A stretch of 64,000 nt of DNA from contig NZ_PVTX01000006.1 in assembly GCF_003003075.1 (NCBI RefSeq), forward strand, positions 1-64,000, read 5' to 3'. This DNA is from Isoptericola halotolerans. Lineage in GTDB: Bacteria > Actinomycetota > Actinomycetes > Actinomycetales > Cellulomonadaceae. The notes below the pieces were generated by a model. The model had not been told where the DNA came from. It searched no databases and worked only from the letters and a program-made list of their open reading frames with translations. Both the position numbers and the translations under genes were made by a program. Of the stretch, positions 2,824-19,118 are shown one piece after another (positions within the stretch are counted from its first letter, which is position 1; each line of letters opens with the position of its first letter).

Positions 2824-3714
2824 ATGCCGACGCCCGATCCAGGAGCTGCCTCGCCGTTCTCCGTGCGGTCAGCGCTGGCCCGGGGTACGTCGGCCGAGTC
2901 GCTGCGCGTCGGCGACGCCCTCACGGCCCCGTTCCAAGGTGTCCGTGTCCCGGGTCCACGGCGCGACGACTTCCTGACGCGCTGCCGCGCCCTGGCGACC
3001 GTGCTCGACGACTCCGTCGCGTTCAGTCACGGGACCGCGCTCCGTCTGCTCGGGGTCGACCTGCCCTGGACGATGGCCGGCGAGGACGCGCTGCACGTGA
3101 TCTCGTCGAACCCGGCGGAACGCGCTCAGAGGCCCGGGGTGGTCGCGCACCGCAGCAGGCAGGAGAGTCTCGACGTCGTGGACGTCGGCGGTTTGCGGGT
3201 GACCGCACCGGCACAGACCTTCGTCCATGTCGGCGTCGGTCTGCGGCGCCCGGACGACGTGGTGGTGCTCGGCGACTCGTTCCTCCGCCGCAAGCGGATG
3301 CTCACCTCGGTGGCAGAGATGGCCCGCAAGGCGGAGTCGACCCGCAAGGTCAAGGGCATCGCACAGGTCCGCGAGCAGCTCTCACGGGTCCGGCCGGGCA
3401 CGGACTCCGTGATGGAGACGCGTACGCGCATGCTCCTCACCGGCGCGGGGCTACCCTGCCCCCAGGTGAACGAGGTCGTCTGGTTGGCTGACGGCACCTA
3501 CGTCAAACGGTGCGACCTGCTCTACCCGGACCACCAGGTGGTGATCGAGTACGACGGCGACCAGCACCGGACGGACAAGGAGCAGTGGCGCGACGACGTC
3601 CGTCGTCGCCGATGGCTCGAGGAGCTCGGGTTGACGGTCATCGTCGCGGTGGCCGACGACATCGTCCGGGACGGGACCAGGCTGGTGGAGCGCACGCGCC
3701 GAGCCCTCCGATAA
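2824..3714 (+). CDS. DUF559/AbiEi-like protein with PD-(D/E)xK nuclease fold
   Basis: This 296-residue protein has an N-terminal part that resembles AbiEi-type antitoxin or transcriptional-regulator domains (FSHGTALRLLGVDLPW, then VVAHRS and a VTAPAQTF strand). The C-terminal domain is DUF559/Vsr-like: RCDLLYP, then VVIEYDGDQHR, then RDD-to-RRRWLEELG. The Asp and the ExDG motif expected of the nuclease core are intact. Such proteins are frequent, often multi-copy orphans in Micrococcales and are suspected to belong to defence or toxin-antitoxin systems; the role is not known. ATG at 2824 is the first start after the preceding repeat. A family A palindrome lies immediately on each side, unlike any other gene here, which suggests it may have moved as a cassette. 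Confidence 0.75.
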   Translation: MPTPDPGAASPFSVRSALARGTSAESLRVGDALTAPFQGVRVPGPRRDDFLTRCRALATVLDDSVAFSHGTALRLLGVDLPWTMAGEDALHVISSNPAERAQRPGVVAHRSRQESLDVVDVGGLRVTAPAQTFVHVGVGLRRPDDVVVLGDSFLRRKRMLTSVAEMARKAESTRKVKGIAQVREQLSRVRPGTDSVMETRTRMLLTGAGLPCPQVNEVVWLADGTYVKRCDLLYPDHQVVIEYDGDQHRTDKEQWRDDVRRRRWLEELGLTVIVAVADDIVRDGTRLVERTRRALR

Positions 3715-3715
3715 C

Positions 3716-3789
3716 CGTTGTGGGCGCGATATCTGGGCCCGGTATGCGCCCATAAGGTGCATAACGGGCCAAGAATCGCGCCCACAACG
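3716..3789. repeat. Long intergenic palindrome, family A copy 2
   Basis: CGTTGTGGGCGCGATATCTG (3716-3735) followed by GGCCCG pairs imperfectly with the mirror arm at 3765-3789; ATGC/GCAT pairs in the middle. It lies 1 nt after the stop codon of the nuclease-like gene and between convergent genes. Confidence 0.8.
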
Positions 3790-3846
3790 ACGCGCGCACG
3801 GTGCTCGGCGCGAGCCGGCGCCCGGCACGCGGCACGCGGCGGGCGG

Positions 3847-4671
3847 TCAGTGGCGGTTGCGGTAGAGGTACATCGTGATCGGGGCGAACACCGCGGTCAT
3901 CACGACGGCGGAGATCAGCACCGTCGTCACGTCGCCCCAGCCCGCGGTGCCGGCCATGAGGCCACGGACCGCGGTGACCAGGTGAGACACCGGGTTGAGG
4001 TCCACGAAGGTCTGCAGACCCGCCGGCATCGTGGACGGGTCCACGAAGATGTTCGACGCGAACGTCAACGGCATGAGGACCATCATCGACACGCCCATGA
4101 CGGCGTTCGGGGTGCGCAGCAGCAGGCCGAGGATCGTGAAGATCCAGCTCAGCGCGAAGGCGAAGACCAGCAGCAGCGCCACGCCGGCCACCACGCCGAG
4201 CACCCCACCGTCCGGCCGGAACCCGATGAGCAGGCCCAGCCCGATGCACATGATCGAGGCGATCGTGTACCGGACCGTGTCACCCAGCAGCGCCCCCACG
4301 ATCGGTGCCGGACGCCAGATCGGCAGCGACCGGAACCTGTCGAACACGCCCTTGGTGATGTCCGTGTTGAGCGTGTAGCCCGTGTACACGGTCACGATGA
4401 TGATCGTCTGCACCAGGATGCCCGGCAGCAGGAACTGGATGTAGGCGTCCGTGGACCCCGCGATCGCCCCGCCGAACAGGTACGTGAACATCAGCGTGAA
4501 GATCACGGGGGAGACCAGCACGTCGAAGAGCTGCTCCGGCACGTGCTTGATCTTCAGCAGGGCCCGCCAGGCGAAGGTCAGCGAGGTCGAGACGGCCGAC
4601 GGGCGTGCCGGCCGCTCCTCCAGCGCCACGGCCTCGCGCATCGTGGTCGTGCTGATGTCGACGGCGCTCAT
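3847..4671 (-). CDS. ABC-2 type exporter permease (DrrB-like)
   Basis: A 274-residue membrane protein with six predicted membrane segments and the ABC2_membrane layout, including [10 protein letters not shown] after the first pair of helices, [20 protein letters not shown] in the cytoplasmic loop and [15 protein letters not shown] near the end. The family forms the membrane channel of daunorubicin/antibiotic-type efflux ABC transporters. ATG at 4671 overlaps the stop of the ATPase gene upstream (ATGA), so the two are translationally coupled. The substrate cannot be inferred. It is the last gene of a two-gene operon ending at a convergent repeat. Confidence 0.9.
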
Positions 4672-5690
4672 CGTGCCACCTCCTGCTCGACGGCCGCGCC
4701 GTCGCTCGTCTCGTCCGCCGGCAACGGTGCGCCGGTGAGGGTCAGGAACACCTCGTCCAGGCTGGGCTGCCCGAGGGAGAACTCCGGGACGGCGATCCCT
4801 GCCTCGCCGAGCGCGGGCAGGACCTGCGCCACGAGGTGGGCTCCGTCGTCGGGCACGCGTGCGCTCAGTGCGTACGGGTCGGTGGGCAGCGTCGGTGCGG
4901 TCCCGAGCACACGCTGGACGACGGCGACGGCCTCGGCGCGCTGTGCGGCGTCGGCGAGGCGGATCTCGACCGCGCCCTGGCCGACCGAACGCTTGAGCTC
5001 GGTGGACGTGCCCTCGGCGATCAGCTTGCCGTGGTCGATGACGCCGATCCGGTCGGCGAGCTGGTCCGCCTCCTCCAGGTACTGCGTGGTGAGCAGCACC
5101 GTGGCGCCGTCGTCGACCAGCACCCGCACGATGTCCCACACCTGGTTGCGCGATCGTGGGTCGAGCCCGGTGGTGGGCTCGTCCAGGAACAGCACACGCG
5201 GGGAGAGCACCAGCGACGCGGCGAGGTCGATGCGACGGCGCATGCCGCCCGAGTACGTCTTGACCTGACGCGGGCCGGCGTCGGTCAGGCTGAACGCCTC
5301 GAGCAGGCTCGCCACGCGATCGGTGGCGGCCCGCCCGCGGAACCCGTACAGCCGGGCGAGCATGAGGAGGTTCTCGGTACCCGTCAGGTCCTCGTCCACC
5401 GACGCGTACTGGCCGGTGAGCCCGACGGCGCTGCGCACGGCGTCCGCGTCGTGCACGACGTCGTGCCCCAGGACGCGGGCGGAGCCGCCGTCGGGCCGCA
5501 GGAGCGTGGCGAGCATGCGCACGACCGTCGTCTTGCCCGCGCCGTTGGGTCCGAGCAGGCCGAAGACGCTCCCGGTGGGGATCGTCAGGTCGACGCCGTC
5601 GACGGCCTTCGTGGTCTTCTTGCCGGAGGTGAAGTGCTTGACGAGCCCGGTCGCCTGGACGGCGGGACTCGAGTCAGGGGTGTCGGTCAT
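4668..5690 (-). CDS. ABC exporter ATP-binding protein (DrrA-like)
   Basis: A 340-residue nucleotide-binding subunit. Walker A is GPNGAGKTT, the Q-loop is in [14 protein letters not shown], the signature is [12 protein letters not shown], Walker B is [12 protein letters not shown], and the H-loop follows in TTQYLEEAD. The C-terminal third carries the extension typical of daunorubicin-resistance type ATPases, including [20 protein letters not shown]. It energises export by the permease encoded just downstream with a 4-nt overlap. No dedicated regulator is adjacent. Confidence 0.93.
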
Positions 5691-5803
5691 CTCAGGGGTC
5701 TCCTCGGTCGCCTCGTCCTCACGTTAGAACCTACGACTCGGTACCGACAGGGAATTCATCGCTCGGCAGACGGGTACCGGTCGTCGTGGCCGGTCCCTGT
5801 CAG

Positions 5804-5809
5804 TACAGT
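5804..5809 (+). promoter_or_regulatory. -10 box for leaderless serine hydrolase mRNA
   Basis: TACAGT ends 7 nt before the ATG at 5817 and no Shine-Dalgarno sequence lies between them, so transcription probably starts at or within a base or two of the start codon. Confidence 0.55.
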
Positions 5810-5816
5810 GCCGCGC

Positions 5817-7277
5817 ATGCCCCTCACGCGTGTCGATCACCTCGACCCTGCCTACCTCCACCACTGGGTCGCGACCCAGGCCGGCATCGCCCGCACGCCC
5901 GGCGTGCAGTACGCCGTGCTCGTCCGGGGCGAGGTCGTGCTCGACGGCGCATGGGGCGTCACCGACCTGACGTCCGGCACCCCGCTGCGCGGCGACCACC
6001 TGTTCCGCGTCGCGTCGCACTCCAAGACGTTCACGGCCACCGCCGTCGCGCGCCTCGTGGAGCGAGGAGAGATGCGCCTCGACGACGCGTTGGCCGCTCA
6101 CGTGCCCGAGCTCGGCGGCTCGCGGGCCGGCGAGGTCACCGTGCGGGAGGCGCTCGGGCACACCGGCGGGCTGCGGCGCGACGGCGAGGACGCCGACTTC
6201 TGGCAGCTGGCGGCGCCGTTCCCGGACCGTGCCCACCTGCTCGACTCCGTGCTGACCAGCGGCGACGTGCTGGATCGGGGGGAGGCGTTCAAGTACTCCA
6301 ACCTCGCCTACGGGCTGCTCGGCCTCGCGATCGAGGCCGTGACCGGCACCCCGTACGCCGAGCACGTGCGCACCGACCTCCTCGAGCCGCTCGGCCTGGC
6401 CGACACCCACCCCGAGCTGGACGACGACATCGACCGGCGCGCCGTCGTCGGGCACTCGGCGCCGGTGCTCGCCGAGCCCGGCCTGCCCGTCCGGTTCGCC
6501 GACGGGCGGCTGCCCGTGGCCGCCGCGACCACCGGAGCGCTCGCCGCCGCCACCGGGTTCTGCTCCACGGCGCGCGACCTGGTCCGGTGGGCTGCCGCGC
6601 ACTGCGACGGGTCCGACCTGCTGAGCCCGGCGACGCGGCGCCTCTTGCAGCGGGCCGAGTCGGTGGTGGAGCTCCCGGGCGCTCCGCGCCGCGAGTACGG
6701 GCTCGGGTTCGAGTCGCGCGAGATCGCCGGCCGTCGCGTCGTCGGGCACTCGGGCGGGTTCCCCGGACAGATCACCCGGACCTGGTTCGACCCCGAGCGC
6801 GGCATCGCCGTCGCCGTCCTGACCAACGCCGTCGACGGCCCCGCCGACCAGATCGCCGGCGGCCTGTTCTCCCTGGTCAGCAAGGCTCTCGGCGATGTCG
6901 CCGACGACGGCGGAGCGGCACGGGCCGGGCAGGCTGCGGCCGCGCACGGCTCGCCCGCACCGCACGCGCTCGACCGGTGGACGGGCTGCTTCGCGAACCT
7001 GTGGGGCATGGTGGACGTGGCGCGGCTGGGGGAGCAGCTGTGGCTGATCGACCCGCGCAAGGCCGACCCCTTCGTCGGCGCCGAGGAGCTGTCGGTGGAC
7101 GGCTCGGTGCTGCGCCCGGCGGTGCACGACGGGTTCGGTCCGGTGGGTGAAGCGATCGAGGTGCTGCGGGACGACGCGGGCGAGGCGGTCGGCGTCGTCG
7201 TCGGCGGGATGACGTCGTGGCGCGCGGCGGACTACGAGCGCGAGCGGCGCGCCCAGGCGGAGCCGCTCACCCGCTGA
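5817..7277 (+). CDS. Serine beta-lactamase-like hydrolase (class C / D-aminopeptidase family)
   Basis: A 486-residue protein of the beta-lactamase/PBP4*/EstB superfamily. The nucleophile motif SxxK is SHSK (S67, K70), the second motif YxN is YSN near residue 160, and the third is HSGGFPG near residue 310. The last roughly 110 residues form a beta-rich domain of the kind that follows many of these hydrolases. No signal peptide is present, so it is probably cytoplasmic and may be an esterase, D-amino acid amidase or peptidase rather than a true beta-lactamase. ATG at 5817 is supported by the -10 box and by the start of similarity. It is monocistronic. Confidence 0.88.
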   Translation: MPLTRVDHLDPAYLHHWVATQAGIARTPGVQYAVLVRGEVVLDGAWGVTDLTSGTPLRGDHLFRVASHSKTFTATAVARLVERGEMRLDDALAAHVPELGGSRAGEVTVREALGHTGGLRRDGEDADFWQLAAPFPDRAHLLDSVLTSGDVLDRGEAFKYSNLAYGLLGLAIEAVTGTPYAEHVRTDLLEPLGLADTHPELDDDIDRRAVVGHSAPVLAEPGLPVRFADGRLPVAAATTGALAAATGFCSTARDLVRWAAAHCDGSDLLSPATRRLLQRAESVVELPGAPRREYGLGFESREIAGRRVVGHSGGFPGQITRTWFDPERGIAVAVLTNAVDGPADQIAGGLFSLVSKALGDVADDGGAARAGQAAAAHGSPAPHALDRWTGCFANLWGMVDVARLGEQLWLIDPRKADPFVGAEELSVDGSVLRPAVHDGFGPVGEAIEVLRDDAGEAVGVVVGGMTSWRAADYERERRAQAEPLTR

Positions 7278-14386: not shown

Positions 14387-14860
14387 TCAGGCCTCGTCCG
14401 GCTGGGCGAACTCCGCGGGCGGGACCTCGGCGCCGGCCTTGAGGGTGCGTCCGACGGTGCACGCGCGGTCGATGGAACGCTGCGCGAGCAGGAGCGTCTT
14501 CTCCCGGGTCTTGTCGTCCAGGCCCGACAGGTCGATCTCGAACTTCTCCGTCAGGACGGGGTAGCGGTCGTCGGCCATGTCCTTGGGGTCCTCGACCCGG
14601 ATGGTCACCCCGTAGTCGTCGCCGAGCACCCGCGAGAACTTCAGGTCGCTGGCCATGCCCGCGCAGGCGGCGAGCGCGATCTTCAGCAGCTCACCCGGGG
14701 TGAAGACGGCGCCCTCGGAGGCCGGTCCGATCTCCACGCTGGCCCCGCGGGCGGTGTGCCCACGGTAGGTCCGGGTGCCGGTGCGCTCGACCCACAGCGG
14801 GTCGGTGGGGGAGGGGGTCACGGCGGCGATGTCGTCGCCGGTGGTGGTCTGGTCGGTCAT
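14387..14860 (-). CDS. OsmC/Ohr family peroxide-reducing protein
   Basis: A 157-residue OsmC-fold protein. The two redox cysteines are in ALAACAGMAS and in RACTVGRTL, with the conserved GASVEIGPASEGA strand before them. OsmC/Ohr proteins reduce organic hydroperoxides, or act on persulfides, in the cytoplasm. ATG at 14860 is the natural start. It probably forms an operon with the SRPBCC gene. Confidence 0.87.
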   Translation of the reverse strand: MTDQTTTGDDIAAVTPSPTDPLWVERTGTRTYRGHTARGASVEIGPASEGAVFTPGELLKIALAACAGMASDLKFSRVLGDDYGVTIRVEDPKDMADDRYPVLTEKFEIDLSGLDDKTREKTLLLAQRSIDRACTVGRTLKAGAEVPPAEFAQPDEA

Positions 14861-14947
14861 GGGTCGATCCTCGCACCGCACGGCTGCCGTGCGCGACGGC
14901 GTCCGTCACACCGCGCGAGTGCCGCCGGACGGTGCTTGGATCAGAGG

Positions 14948-15864: not shown

Positions 15865-15891
15865 TGTCACGGATCGCGCTGCTGCTCGGTC
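15865..15891 (+). promoter_or_regulatory. ECF41-type promoter of the epimerase-sigJ operon
   Basis: TGTCACG (15865-15871), 16 bp, then GGTC (15888-15891). Characterised ECF41 promoters read TGTCACA-N16-CGTC, so each box has one mismatch and the spacing is exact. The gene starts 52 nt further on. A second copy with identical spacing lies at 19092-19118. Confidence 0.75.
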
Positions 15892-15942
15892 ATGAGGGTG
15901 TCAGGCGGCTGCAGGCCGCTGCACACGAAAAGGGAGAGTCGC

Positions 15943-16677
15943 ATGAAGATCGTGGTCATCGGAGGTACCGGCCTCGTCGGCAGCCAGCTCGTGGCGCTCC
16001 TGCGGGAGGCGGGGCACGACGGGGTCGTGGCGGCGCCGAGCACCGGCGTCGACACGCTCACCGGTGCGGGGGTCGACGACGCTCTGGCAGGGGCGGACGC
16101 GGTGGTCGACGTGTCGAACTCGCCGTCGTTCGCGGACGACGACGTGATGCGCTTCTTCACCACGTCGACCGGGAGGTTGCTCGACGCCGAGGAGCGGGCC
16201 GGGGTGAGGCACCACGTCGTCCTGTCCATCGTGGGAACAGACCGTACGGACGCGGGCTACCTACGCGCCAAGCTCGCTCAGGAGCAGCTCGTCCAGGACG
16301 CGGGGCGCCGGTGGTCGATCGTCCGGGCCACGCAGTTCTTCGAGTTCGCGAAGACCATCGCCGACGGCTCCACGGTCGACGGCGTGGTCCACCTCCCGCC
16401 GGTCGCCTTCCAGCCGGTCGCCTCAGCCGACGTGGCACGCGCCGTCGCCGACGTGGTGACCGGCGAGCCGCCGGACGGCATCCTCGAGGTGGCGGGACCA
16501 GAGCGCCTGCGCTTCGACGAGTTCGTCCGGCTCGCGCTCGCCGCGCAGGACGACGGCCGGGAGGTCGTCGCCGATCCCGAGGCCACGTACTTCGGTGCTC
16601 TGCTCGACGAGGACTCGATCGTCCCCCGGGGCGAGTTTCGGCGAGGCGAGGTGACCTGGGCTCGGTTCTCGGGCTGA
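15943..16677 (+). CDS. NmrA-like NAD(P)-binding epimerase (ECF41 partner)
   Basis: A 244-residue atypical short-chain dehydrogenase with the Rossmann motif GGTGLVGS near residue 8, the VVDVSNSPSF segment and VVLSIVGTDR. It lacks a clear YxxxK pair, as expected of NmrA/SDR_a5 proteins. Most ECF41 sigma factors are encoded beside a COE protein (carboxymuconolactone decarboxylase, oxidoreductase or epimerase); this is that partner. ATG at 15943 with AAGGGAGAG 5 nt upstream is preferred to an upstream in-frame codon at 15892. It precedes the sigma gene by 39 nt on the same strand. Confidence 0.87.
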   Translation: MKIVVIGGTGLVGSQLVALLREAGHDGVVAAPSTGVDTLTGAGVDDALAGADAVVDVSNSPSFADDDVMRFFTTSTGRLLDAEERAGVRHHVVLSIVGTDRTDAGYLRAKLAQEQLVQDAGRRWSIVRATQFFEFAKTIADGSTVDGVVHLPPVAFQPVASADVARAVADVVTGEPPDGILEVAGPERLRFDEFVRLALAAQDDGREVVADPEATYFGALLDEDSIVPRGEFRRGEVTWARFSG

Positions 16678-16704
16678 CCACCGACGCTGCTGCCCTCCTC
16701 GGCG

Positions 16705-16710
16705 TACCGT
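16705..16710 (+). promoter_or_regulatory. Possible -10 box for an internal leaderless sigJ transcript
   Basis: TACCGT ends 6 nt before the sigma-factor ATG, with no ribosome binding site between, so the sigma gene may also have its own basal promoter. Confidence 0.4.
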
Positions 16711-16716
16711 GACCGC

Positions 16717-17634
16717 ATGACGTCGCGCACGACGGCGAGCGAGAGCCCCGAGCGCCCCGGTGTCCACGTGGAACCCGGGGCGCTGGAGGCGTTCGTCGCG
16801 GCCAGGTCCCAGCTGTTCGGCATCGCTTACCGCATGCTCGGGAGCGTCGCCGAGGCAGAGGACGTGGTGCAGGACGCGTGGGTCCGTTGGCAGCGCACGG
16901 ACCGGTCGGTGGTGAGCAATCCCGCGGCGTTCCTCACCACGATCACCACACGGCTCGCGATCAACGCCGCGAGCTCGGCCCGCGCACGTCGTGAGACGTA
17001 CGTCGGTCCGTGGCTCCCCGAACCTGTCGACACCGCGCAGGACCCGGCCCTGGGGGCGGAGAGAGCCGAGGCACTCGAGCTCGCGACCCTCATGCTCCTC
17101 GAGCGCCTGGCTCCGACCGAGCGCGCGGTGTACGTGCTGCGCGAGGCCTTCGGCTATCCCTATCGACGGGTCGCTGAGATCCTCGAGACGTCGGAGGCCA
17201 ACGCCCGTCAGCTGGCCCGCCGTGCGCGGGAGCGGATCAACCGGCGTGCTCCGGCGCGGGTGGACGCGGCGGAGCACAGGCGCCTTCTCGACGAGTTCGT
17301 CGCGGCCGCGCACGACGGTGACCTCGGCCGGTTCGAGCGGTACCTGGCCGACACCGTCGTCGCCCGACCCGATGGCGGGGGCAAGGTGCACGCCTCGCGC
17401 AAGGAGCTCGTGGGCGTGGCGCGCGTCTCCCTGTTCTTCGACAACGTCTGGCGCAAGTACTGGGCTGACGCGACGCTGCGCGAGGTCGACGCCAACGGCC
17501 TCCCGGCGCTGCTCGTCTCGCGCGAGGGCGCGCCGTTCGCGCTCCTCGCGCTCGACGTGACGACGCGGGGGATCGAGCACGTCTACGTCCAGGTCAACCC
17601 GGACAAGCTCGGGGGCTACGCCGCCACGGGGTGA
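16717..17634 (+). CDS. ECF sigma factor, ECF41/SigJ family, with SnoaL-like C-terminal domain
   Basis: A 305-residue extracytoplasmic-function sigma factor. Regions 2 (SQLFGIAYRMLGSVAEAEDV) and 4 (AFGYPYRRVAEILETSEANA) bind core polymerase and promoter DNA. Three hallmark motifs of ECF41 are present: WLPEP (W99) in the linker, DGGGK (D219) and NPDKL (N294) in the C-terminal SnoaL-like domain. That domain replaces a separate anti-sigma factor and both activates and restrains the protein. The likely targets are the two promoters of matching type at 15865 and 19118. The stop lies 8 bp from the stop of the convergent flavoprotein gene. Confidence 0.95.
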   Translation: MTSRTTASESPERPGVHVEPGALEAFVAARSQLFGIAYRMLGSVAEAEDVVQDAWVRWQRTDRSVVSNPAAFLTTITTRLAINAASSARARRETYVGPWLPEPVDTAQDPALGAERAEALELATLMLLERLAPTERAVYVLREAFGYPYRRVAEILETSEANARQLARRARERINRRAPARVDAAEHRRLLDEFVAAAHDGDLGRFERYLADTVVARPDGGGKVHASRKELVGVARVSLFFDNVWRKYWADATLREVDANGLPALLVSREGAPFALLALDVTTRGIEHVYVQVNPDKLGGYAATG

Positions 17635-17642
17635 GCACGCCC

Positions 17643-19046
17643 TCAGGCGACGTGCGCCGGCTCCGCGGCACCCCGCGTCTCCTGCCCGGGGGTGCCGTCC
17701 TCCGCCAGGATCGACGTGGTCGAGCGCGGTGCCGCAGCGACGAAAGCGGCACGGGGTCGCTGCACCGACGTGAGCGAGACGACGTCGCGGCCGAACACGG
17801 CGGCCGTGAGCCACACGGCCAGGACCCGAGCCTTCCGCTCCCACGTGGGGATGGCGAGCACGTGGTACCCACGGTGCATCATCCAGGCGAGGCGGCCGCG
17901 CACGACGAGGCGGCGGAGCTCGAAGACGCCGGACCCGAGGCCGAGGGTCGCGATGACTCCGAGGCTGCCGTGCACGTACGGACGGGTGCGCCGGCCGCGC
18001 AGCGTGGCGGCGAGGTTGCGCGCCAGCCGGCGGCTCTGGCGCACCGCGTGCTGGGCGTTCGGGACGGCGAGCGCGCCCGGACGCGGAACGGCGAGATCGG
18101 GCACCGCGGCACCGTCCCCGGCAGCCCACGCGTCGTCGATCGGGACGTCGTCCGTGCCGACCCGCAGGTCGGGTCGTACGACGACGTAGCCGCGCTCGTC
18201 GACCGGCAGGTCGGTGTGCGTGGCGACCACGGGGTTGGCAGCGTTGCCGGCCGTCCACACGAGCAGGCCCGTCGCGTACGACTCGCCCGTGGACAGCCTG
18301 ACCACGCCGTCGGTGGCCGACTCGAGACCGGTGCCGAGGTGGACCCTCGCGCCACGTCGTTCGAGCTCGCTGACGACCCAGCGCCCGGGACGGTCGGTGA
18401 CCTCGGGCAGGATGCGCGGGCTGCGTTCCACGAGATGGAACTGCAGTTCCGAGGCGTGGATCTCGGGGTAGCGGTCCAGCAGGTCGTGCGCGAGGGAGAG
18501 CAGCTCCCCGAACCCCTCCACGCCGGAGAACCCGCCGCCCACGAACGTCACGGTCAGCAGCCGTCGGCGCTCCGGGCCGGCCGGAAGCACCGCGGCCTGG
18601 TCGAAGGACGTCAGCAGGCGGTCACGGATCGCGACGGCCTCCTCGACGTGCTTCATGCCGATGCCGTGCTCCGACACGCCCGGCACGGGGAAGACCCGGG
18701 TCACGGCGCCGGCGGTGACGACCACGGTGTCGTAGTCGATGTGTTGCTCGGCCCCACTCCGCGGGCGCACGACTACCTGGTGGGCGGCGTGGTCGATCCG
18801 GGTCACGGTGCCGTCGACGAGCCGGGTGCGGCGCAGGTGGGTGCGGTGCGCCACGGCGGCGTGCCGGGCTTCGACCGACGCGCCGACCACCTCGGGCAGG
18901 AACGGCTGGTAGGTCATGTACGGGCGCGGGTCCACGAGCACCAGCTCGACGTCGCCGCGCCGCAGTTCGGGCCGCAGGTGCTTCTCGAGCTCGCGGGCCG
19001 CCGTGAACCCGGCGTAGCCCCCGCCGACGATGACGATGCGTTCCAT
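17643..19046 (-). CDS. NDH-2-like FAD-dependent pyridine nucleotide oxidoreductase
   Basis: A 467-residue flavoprotein with two dinucleotide-binding folds: IVIVGGGYAGFTAARELEKH at the N-terminus for FAD and VTFVGGGFSGVEG near residue 160 for NAD(P)H. The second FAD motif is DAWAAGDGAAVPD. The C-terminal amphipathic region with FELRRLVVRGRLAWMMHRGY matches type II NADH dehydrogenases, which pass electrons to quinones at the membrane face without pumping. ATG at 19046 has CAGGAGG upstream. It converges on the ECF41 operon and its upstream region carries the same promoter type, so it is a likely regulon member. Confidence 0.9.
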   Translation of the reverse strand: MERIVIVGGGYAGFTAARELEKHLRPELRRGDVELVLVDPRPYMTYQPFLPEVVGASVEARHAAVAHRTHLRRTRLVDGTVTRIDHAAHQVVVRPRSGAEQHIDYDTVVVTAGAVTRVFPVPGVSEHGIGMKHVEEAVAIRDRLLTSFDQAAVLPAGPERRRLLTVTFVGGGFSGVEGFGELLSLAHDLLDRYPEIHASELQFHLVERSPRILPEVTDRPGRWVVSELERRGARVHLGTGLESATDGVVRLSTGESYATGLLVWTAGNAANPVVATHTDLPVDERGYVVVRPDLRVGTDDVPIDDAWAAGDGAAVPDLAVPRPGALAVPNAQHAVRQSRRLARNLAATLRGRRTRPYVHGSLGVIATLGLGSGVFELRRLVVRGRLAWMMHRGYHVLAIPTWERKARVLAVWLTAAVFGRDVVSLTSVQRPRAAFVAAAPRSTTSILAEDGTPGQETRGAAEPAHVA

Positions 19047-19091
19047 GACCGCCTCCTGTACGGCGCGCACCGTGCGCGCTCTCACCCTCTC

Positions 19092-19118
19092 GACCGTGCG
19101 GCACGCTCATCTGTGACA
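19092..19118 (-). promoter_or_regulatory. ECF41-type promoter of the flavoprotein gene
   Basis: On the minus strand, TGTCACA (19118-19112), 16 bp, then GGTC (19095-19092). The -35 box is a perfect match to the ECF41 consensus, and spacing and -10 box are the same as upstream of the epimerase gene. The coding start is 46 nt downstream. Confidence 0.75.

Follow-up and report, generated by a model that had tools for sequence, protein, structure and literature searches.

A 64,000-nucleotide stretch of the Isoptericola halotolerans genome (positions 1 to 64,000 of contig NZ_PVTX01000006.1, assembly GCF_003003075.1; 3.85 Mb in 22 contigs), here called the window, carries a gene for an ECF41 sigma factor preceded by a gene for an epimerase-like protein and faced by a gene for a flavoprotein resembling NDH-2, the type II NADH dehydrogenase. 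The epimerase and sigma factor genes lie on the same strand, 39 bp apart. The NDH-2-like gene is convergent with the sigma factor gene, and the two stop codons are 8 bp apart. Translation most likely starts at ATG 15943 for the epimerase and at ATG 19046 for the flavoprotein; each candidate start has a stretch like a ribosome binding site ahead of it, and the longer open reading frame (ORF) available in each case is most likely an upstream extension. An earlier reading made from the sequence only placed TGTCACG-N16-GGTC ahead of the epimerase-sigma operon and TGTCACA-N16-GGTC ahead of the NDH-2-like gene, and proposed that the sigma factor drives both units. Both elements are present letter for letter, with a spacer of 16. 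On the comparisons described below, this is probably a true ECF41 locus whose targets are two transcription units, and the NDH-2-like gene is a target of ECF41 conserved among relatives, whether the sigma factor acts in cis or in trans.

Table 1. Genes, protein motifs and predicted promoters of the ECF41 locus, in window coordinates
Feature	Position	Strand	Details
ECF41-type promoter, epimerase-sigma operon	15865..15891	+	TGTCACG 15865-15871, N16, GGTC 15888-15891; predicted start ~15898
Epimerase/NmrA-like gene (COE), NAD(P)-binding	15943..16677	+	PF13460 and PF01370 above cut-off
ECF41 sigma factor gene with fused C-terminal (SnoaL-like) extension	16717..17634	+	TIGR02957; SigJ subfamily; 5xe7
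WLPEP motif, sigma2-sigma4 linker	17011..17025	+	read in translation
DGGGK motif, C-terminal extension	17371..17385	+	read in translation
NPDKL motif near C terminus	17596..17610	+	read in translation
NDH-2-like flavoprotein gene, second NDH-2 paralogue of the genome	17643..19046	-	PF07992; NDH-2 structures
ECF41-type promoter, NDH-2-like gene	19092..19118	-	TGTCACA 19118-19112, N16, GGTC 19095-19092; predicted start ~19085

The sigma factor is an ordinary ECF41 member. It contains sigma2 and sigma4 domains (PF04542 and PF08281) followed by a C-terminal extension of ~100 residues, and residues 24-300 score above the curated cut-offs of both TIGR02957 and the SigJ subfamily model NF007214. Its closest solved relative is SigJ of Mycobacterium tuberculosis (5xe7; E 3e-44), which likewise has a fused SnoaL-like domain. 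The three hallmarks pointed out in the sequence-only reading, WLPEP in the linker and DGGGK and NPDKL in the extension, are all found in the translation. We take DGGGK and NPDKL to be names of ECF41 motifs, as that reading did. Beside the sigma factor gene stands a COE (carboxymuconolactone decarboxylase, oxidoreductase or epimerase) gene, here the upstream epimerase, whose promoter differs from the consensus TGTCACA-N16-CGTC at two positions (G at position 7 and G as the first base of the -10 box). No anti-sigma-like ORF was seen adjoining the sigma factor gene among the part of the ORFs that was searched with profiles. The accessible text of PMC3426412, the source of most published comparisons made here, names WLPEP as an ECF41 motif and does not contain DGGGK or NPDKL; it describes ECF41 proteins as lacking an obvious anti-sigma factor. 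According to the same text, shortening the C-terminal extension raised promoter activity ~20-fold in Bacillus licheniformis and 120-fold in Rhodobacter sphaeroides, while removal of the whole extension abolished ECF41 activity. Two reviews, in their accessible parts, regard the extension as a SnoaL-like domain that binds a ligand or is inhibitory (PMC8999054, PMC8103513).

The flavoprotein is distinct from the housekeeping NDH-2 of the organism, which is 45% identical to it and is encoded elsewhere in the genome. In sequence searches its nearest structures were the NDH-2 enzymes of mycobacteria, Caldalkalibacillus and yeast (E 1.1e-32 to 2e-26, the best match being mycobacterial). An AlphaFold2 model (mean pLDDT 76) searched with Foldseek returned NDH-2 structures at 22 of the 23 top ranks, the remaining one being a YjlC-YjlD model, so that the two-dinucleotide-domain flavoprotein fold of NDH-2 is found by sequence and by model. 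The C-terminal region aligns with the housekeeping NDH-2, and the model is unreliable (pLDDT below 50) from residue 417, where a C-terminal membrane anchor would be expected in an NDH-2. The assignment as an NADH-quinone-type flavoprotein agrees with these results, NDH-2 being nearest by sequence and by fold, and the protein may reduce quinone. At AQxAxQ, which we take to be the NDH-2 quinone-site motif, it reads AQHAVR; the corresponding stretch is AQHAIR in the housekeeping NDH-2 and AQIAIQ in C. thermarum NDH-2. Among the matches listed in 200 family genomes, identity to the window protein falls into two bands, 63-86% and about 44-49%.

Of 36 bases counted from the -35 element, 26 are identical in the two window promoters, among them the GAT that follows the -35, the CGGTC of the -10 and the GAGGGTG where transcription probably starts. 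The motif by itself is weak evidence, because 1.13 matches to the pattern with a spacer of 15-17 are expected in the window and at least two matches occurred in 29 of 100 window shuffles. The pair within the window was therefore set aside as an argument, and significance has to come from position and conservation. Across the genome, there were 9 matches to TGTCACR-N16-SGTC (none in the backward control) and 11 to TGTCACR-N16-NGTC (one in the backward control). The setting of the 11 sites was read by a heuristic, from ORFs with coding-like codon composition. Four lie ahead of genes at ECF41 loci (two in the window and one at each of two further loci, C1 and C3, described below), and six either lie inside genes or point towards no gene start. 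The last, TGTCACG-N16-TGTC at C5:225741-225767 (L149), is in the tuf-rpsJ gap facing rpsJ and is probably a chance match. In the whole-genome scan, equally good sites in promoter position are therefore few.

To examine conservation, DNA around the sigma factor and NDH-2-like genes was taken from family genomes and from the best 80 named loci of a genome collection. A promoter was scored where TGTCACR, CGTCACR or CCTCACR was followed, after a spacer of 16-17, by NGTC, within 150 bp of a start codon that was inferred in relatives from alignment to the window protein. Before counting, a 30% relative (L080), a split match of <300 aa with an exact site present (L126) and 8 duplicates were dropped. 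The NDH-2-like protein falls in a clade of 99 proteins from Actinomycetota (FastTree local support, 95), and a promoter was found for 89 of them: 54 with TGTCACR, 28 with CGTCACR and 7 with CCTCACR, the -35 element beginning 35-131 bases ahead of the start codon. Shuffling of the upstream stretches (200 rounds) gave a mean of 0.81 and a maximum of 4. The promoter was present at none of 30 loci of the sister clade (29 of these rows labelled Microbacteriaceae) and at none of 20 housekeeping NDH-2 upstream regions fetched out of many more listed. TGTCACN-N15-17-NGTY occurs in the fetched loci 0.015 times per 300 bp and strand, true sites included. Two of the ten members that lack the promoter (L057 and L115) have one-mismatch forms. 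An initial, looser scan of 59 ndh rows had given an exact TGTCAC in 27 and a form with at most one mismatch within 300 bp in 53; its rule was set aside because it picked up spurious second sites. The orthologous epimerase gene is preceded by an ECF41-type promoter in 28 of the 38 loci examined.

Promoters were distributed over the clade as follows (promoter/rows): search family f1, 53/56; Streptomycetaceae, 12/15; Micromonosporaceae, 8/8; Microbacteriaceae, 3/4; Kribbellaceae, 3/3; Pseudonocardiaceae, 1/3; Jiangellaceae and Cellulomonadaceae, 2/2 each; Nocardioidaceae, 1/2; and Nocardiopsidaceae, Catenulisporaceae, Geodermatophilaceae and the window itself, 1/1 each.

Conservation of the promoter extends to loci without a neighboring sigma factor gene. 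At a loose cut-off, 57 of the 99 clade loci have an ECF41 match in the flank that was fetched, and 55 of these 57 carry the promoter. The other 42 have no such match, and 34 of them keep the promoter (29 of 34 when at least 4 kb was available on both sides). A stricter sigma factor cut-off gives 54 linked and 45 unlinked loci, and looser ones leave 43 and 42 unlinked. Because no sigma factor gene lies in these flanks, regulation there would have to act in trans, if the promoter is used. Since most clade members carry the promoter whether or not a sigma factor gene is nearby, the NDH-2-like gene appears to be a conserved target and not a local accident. Gene order varies by group: epimerase-sigma with convergent ndh, epimerase-sigma-ndh, or ndh-sigma-epimerase. 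One locus, L091 from a genome of the Cellulosimicrobium group, has its OsmC-like gene, ndh and thyA arranged as in the window, and ndh keeps TGTCACG-N16-GGTC; the epimerase and sigma factor genes are missing from this locus, with no remnant better than E 1.7. Among 200 family genomes, the NDH-2-like gene occurs in 42 of 47 with a close sigma factor (at least 51% identity) versus 14 of 153 without one, in counts that ignore kinship. An ECF41 protein above the cut-off was found in all 18 clade genomes with unlinked copies; this is weak support, because five of them have a promoter-less ndh and one of four sister-clade genomes also has an ECF41 protein.

A change in the -35 element provides a further link between sigma factor and promoter. 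Seven loci (L117, L120-L124 and L191) have a CCTCACA-type -35 ahead of ndh, mostly followed by N16-CGTC; by match coordinates, the sigma factor gene lies 12-186 bp from ndh. When 66 sigma factors from 54 loci were placed in a tree, those of the seven CCTCAC loci formed one subclade (support 97), whose nearest outsiders are L118 with CGTCAC and L192 with TGTCAC. A single event probably underlies all seven. Covariation of the -35 with a sigma factor subclade is nevertheless expected if the linked sigma factor reads the ndh promoter, and the CCTCAC loci are a possible natural case of changed promoter specificity.

Together, the frequency of the promoter in the clade versus its absence from the two related groups, the tracking of the -35 change with the sigma factor subclade, and the NDH-2 affinity in sequence and fold support the proposal that ECF41 drives its own operon and the NDH-2-like gene. 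We infer that the window sigma factor, rather than a paralogue, probably acts on the NDH-2-like promoter. Controlled via its fused C-terminal extension, as in the published ECF41 systems, this sigma factor would direct RNA polymerase to TGTCAC[AG]-N16-GGTC. Once active, it would transcribe its own epimerase-sigma operon (autoregulation) and, from the separate convergent promoter, the NDH-2-like gene. In this way a small-molecule or redox cue would provide the cell with an alternative point of entry for electrons from NADH to menaquinone, alongside an NAD(P)-binding reductase-like protein, and inducing the two jointly would be consistent with a response to redox or quinone state.

In relatives, similar sites extend beyond these two units. 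The strict pattern TGTCACR-N16-BGTC has 149 matches in the 1.158 Mb surrounding 98 clade members and a single match in the 0.362 Mb surrounding the 30 sister loci; the backward control gave 1 match in each. A somewhat enlarged set of loci has 171 strict sites, comprising 108 before ndh, epimerase or sigma factor genes, 42 before another ORF of at least 90 aa and 21 before none. Nine Streptomycetaceae loci have 5 or 6 sites in ~13 kb; at L168, L156, L164 and L154 these stand ahead of ndh, whiB, epimerase, succinate dehydrogenase (SDH)-like and other genes. Where a gene for one of these proteins was found in the clade loci, a site preceded it in 8 of 8 cases for WhiB, 6 of 15 for an SDH/fumarate-reductase-like flavoprotein (6 untestable, 3 without), 6 of 9 for an alpha/beta hydrolase (1 untestable) and 1 of 22 for a small SnoaL-like protein. 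That one COE target is usual for ECF41, as the sequence-only reading had it, is indeed the view of the literature, but several such sites occur in the flanks of many Actinomycetota.

A cytochrome b gene lies in the flank of 28 of the 99 clade loci versus none of the 30 sister loci, and in 21 it adjoins ndh on the same strand. It follows the NDH-2-like gene directly in most of L099-L115 and in L118, L119, L157, L178 and L188. Three of the 28 cytochrome b genes have an ECF41-type site of their own. At L168, L164 and L156 the gene is beside whiB, closely after it in the first two. The window genome has a single cytochrome b, away from the locus and 54% identical to the Streptomyces one, and its hydrolase matches are partial (30-42%); the cytochrome b and hydrolase links are therefore a property of the relatives. 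A broader reading of this pattern would make ECF41 in Actinomycetota the regulator of an inducible electron-transfer regulon, with the NDH-2 paralogue at its core, cytochrome b in some members, and up to six sites per 13 kb in Streptomycetaceae (WhiB, SDH-like and epimerase genes among the targets). The window would then be a reduced form, and ECF41 would sense respiratory or quinone-redox state via its fused domain. We regard this as an attractive but tentative model, with the balance slightly against it. The larger pattern in the relatives is more interesting than the single locus.

Several explanations other than direct regulation by the window sigma factor were weighed. The sequence-only reading went too far in describing its regulon as self-contained: the genome has two further ECF41 genes, three in all, with similar promoters, so cross-recognition is possible. 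At C1, a Pyr_redox_2 gene (Pfam; L001 269-1528) precedes the second ECF41 gene, with TGTCACA-N16-CGTC ahead at 223737-223763. Its product is 30% identical to the window NDH-2-like protein over a partial match, and the locus looks like another flavoprotein-ECF41 unit. At C3, an epimerase gene (47% identical product) lies near the third ECF41 gene, whose product is 67% identical to the window sigma factor (L066), and TGTCACG-N16-TGTC stands ahead at 196161-196187. The NDH-2-like gene might thus be the target of the C1 or C3 protein, or of all three ECF41 proteins by cross-recognition. The closeness of the C3 protein, the TGTCAC and 16-base spacer common to all four ECF41-locus sites, and the 42 clade loci that would depend on action in trans are all compatible with this. 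Against it, GGTC and further bases are common to both window promoters where the -10 boxes of C1 and C3 read CGTC and TGTC, and the CCTCAC change goes with the linked sigma factor subclade; we consider the paralogue explanation unlikely. That the site is fortuitous, or an operator for a different regulator, with a housekeeping promoter serving the gene, is very improbable. The shuffles of the window and the ten clade members without a site are what such an explanation can draw on, and it has to contend with 89 of 99 promoters versus a shuffle maximum of 4, with their absence from the sister clade, and with a fixed spacer and -10 box placed 35-131 bases before the start.

A different question is what the flavoprotein does. 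It might be an NAD(P)H-dependent reductase acting with the epimerase-like protein to detoxify quinones, peroxides or other small molecules, which would make the locus a detoxification regulon. The accessible text of PMC3426412 connects COE partners of ECF41 with oxidative stress or the degradation of aromatic compounds, the AQxAxQ motif is incomplete, an OsmC-like gene is a syntenic neighbor in 14 of 22 loci searched, with PF02566 just under the cut-off, and the hydrolase gene is preceded by a site in six of nine clade loci. These points are offset by the nearest sequences and folds, which are those of true NDH-2 enzymes, by the cytochrome b genes of the clade flanks (in the window genome, one, elsewhere), and by the accessible part of PMC3426412, according to which neither peroxide nor paraquat stress revealed an ECF41 phenotype in R. 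sphaeroides or B. licheniformis. Detoxification is a doubtful account of the flavoprotein.

Direct control of the NDH-2-like gene by ECF41 also has points to answer. The CGTCAC and CCTCAC forms were admitted after the data had been seen, and with TGTCACR alone the count falls to 54 of 99 (shuffle mean 0.17, maximum 1). Ten of the 99 members have no promoter under the fixed rule, the clade rows are related and hence not independent, and the clade is patchy in the phylum: of 396 genomes, only 7 (own included) gave a match with an E value of at most 1e-140, and 52-55% relatives of the sister-clade type account for 5 of the 7. Either ECF41 paralogue could read the NDH-2-like site. The last Q of AQxAxQ is R in the window protein, though the housekeeping NDH-2 has the same R. 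In the accessible text of PMC3426412, finally, the ECF41 proteins of B. licheniformis and R. sphaeroides each have a single target, and none of three look-alike promoters assayed in B. licheniformis responded. All of these weigh against the two-target reading, which we nevertheless prefer.

Comparison with the characterized systems places the locus. The ydfG-ecf41 locus of B. licheniformis and the RSP_0606-ecf41 locus of R. sphaeroides, as described in the accessible text of PMC3426412, resemble the window in their fused extension, in the COE gene upstream in the operon and in a promoter of TGTCACA-N16-CGTC or near form; they have no anti-sigma factor gene, and none was seen among the searched ORFs beside the window sigma factor gene. 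They differ in that each has one target, whereas the window has a second unit with its own, apparently conserved promoter, and in that their COE is a carboxymuconolactone decarboxylase and that of the window an epimerase. The same text reports no reproducible phenotype for R. sphaeroides in a 960-assay phenotype microarray. It counts Pyr_redox and Pyr_redox_2 proteins among the COE oxidoreductases, and its Table 4 holds nine convergent ECF41/COE pairs, four with a COE promoter. The oxidoreductase loci of that table are like the window in having a Pyr_redox_2 COE that, when convergent, may have a promoter; the table counts one COE per sigma factor, while in the window the NDH-2-clade partner stands beside an epimerase operon. 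RpoE9 of Sinorhizobium meliloti shares the COE-sigma operon and a TGTCACA-N16-CGTC promoter, with a mapped start in that species, and a single target is reported for it in the accessible part of PMC6180224, against two proposed here. The Azospirillum ECF41 protein RpoE10 is said to control lateral flagella (PMC12826043, accessible part); it resembles the window system in an output beyond one COE, and the outputs differ.

The arrangement is known in kind and is a variant only, because Pyr_redox_2 proteins already count as COE oxidoreductases and convergent pairs have already been tabulated. What appears new, and departs from the single-target ECF41 regulon (Wecke et al. 2012), is the predicted second, separately promoted and conserved target before which the ECF41-type promoter recurs, beside an epimerase-sigma operon. 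In the literature searched, we found no paper joining ECF41 with an NADH dehydrogenase, although the ECF reclassification may describe such contexts, and no description of an NDH-2-clade partner, a separate promoter, conservation in trans or flanks with multiple sites. The single-target view may derive from species whose systems are reduced. That an NDH-2-like target is conserved, both in cis and in trans, across 12 named families, in part of them beside cytochrome b, directs attention to electron transfer and indicates which genes, promoters and genera could be explored for the ECF41 signal.

Two neighboring genes were noted in addition. On the left of the epimerase-sigma operon the window has the OsmC-like gene (14390-14881, minus strand; PF02566 at 25.9 bits, below the cut-off of 27.5), with no strict ECF41 site ahead of it in the window. 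At L156, a gene for a cation-transporting P-type ATPase (3058-5958) lies just upstream of ndh, with a strict site 58 bases before the ORF start.

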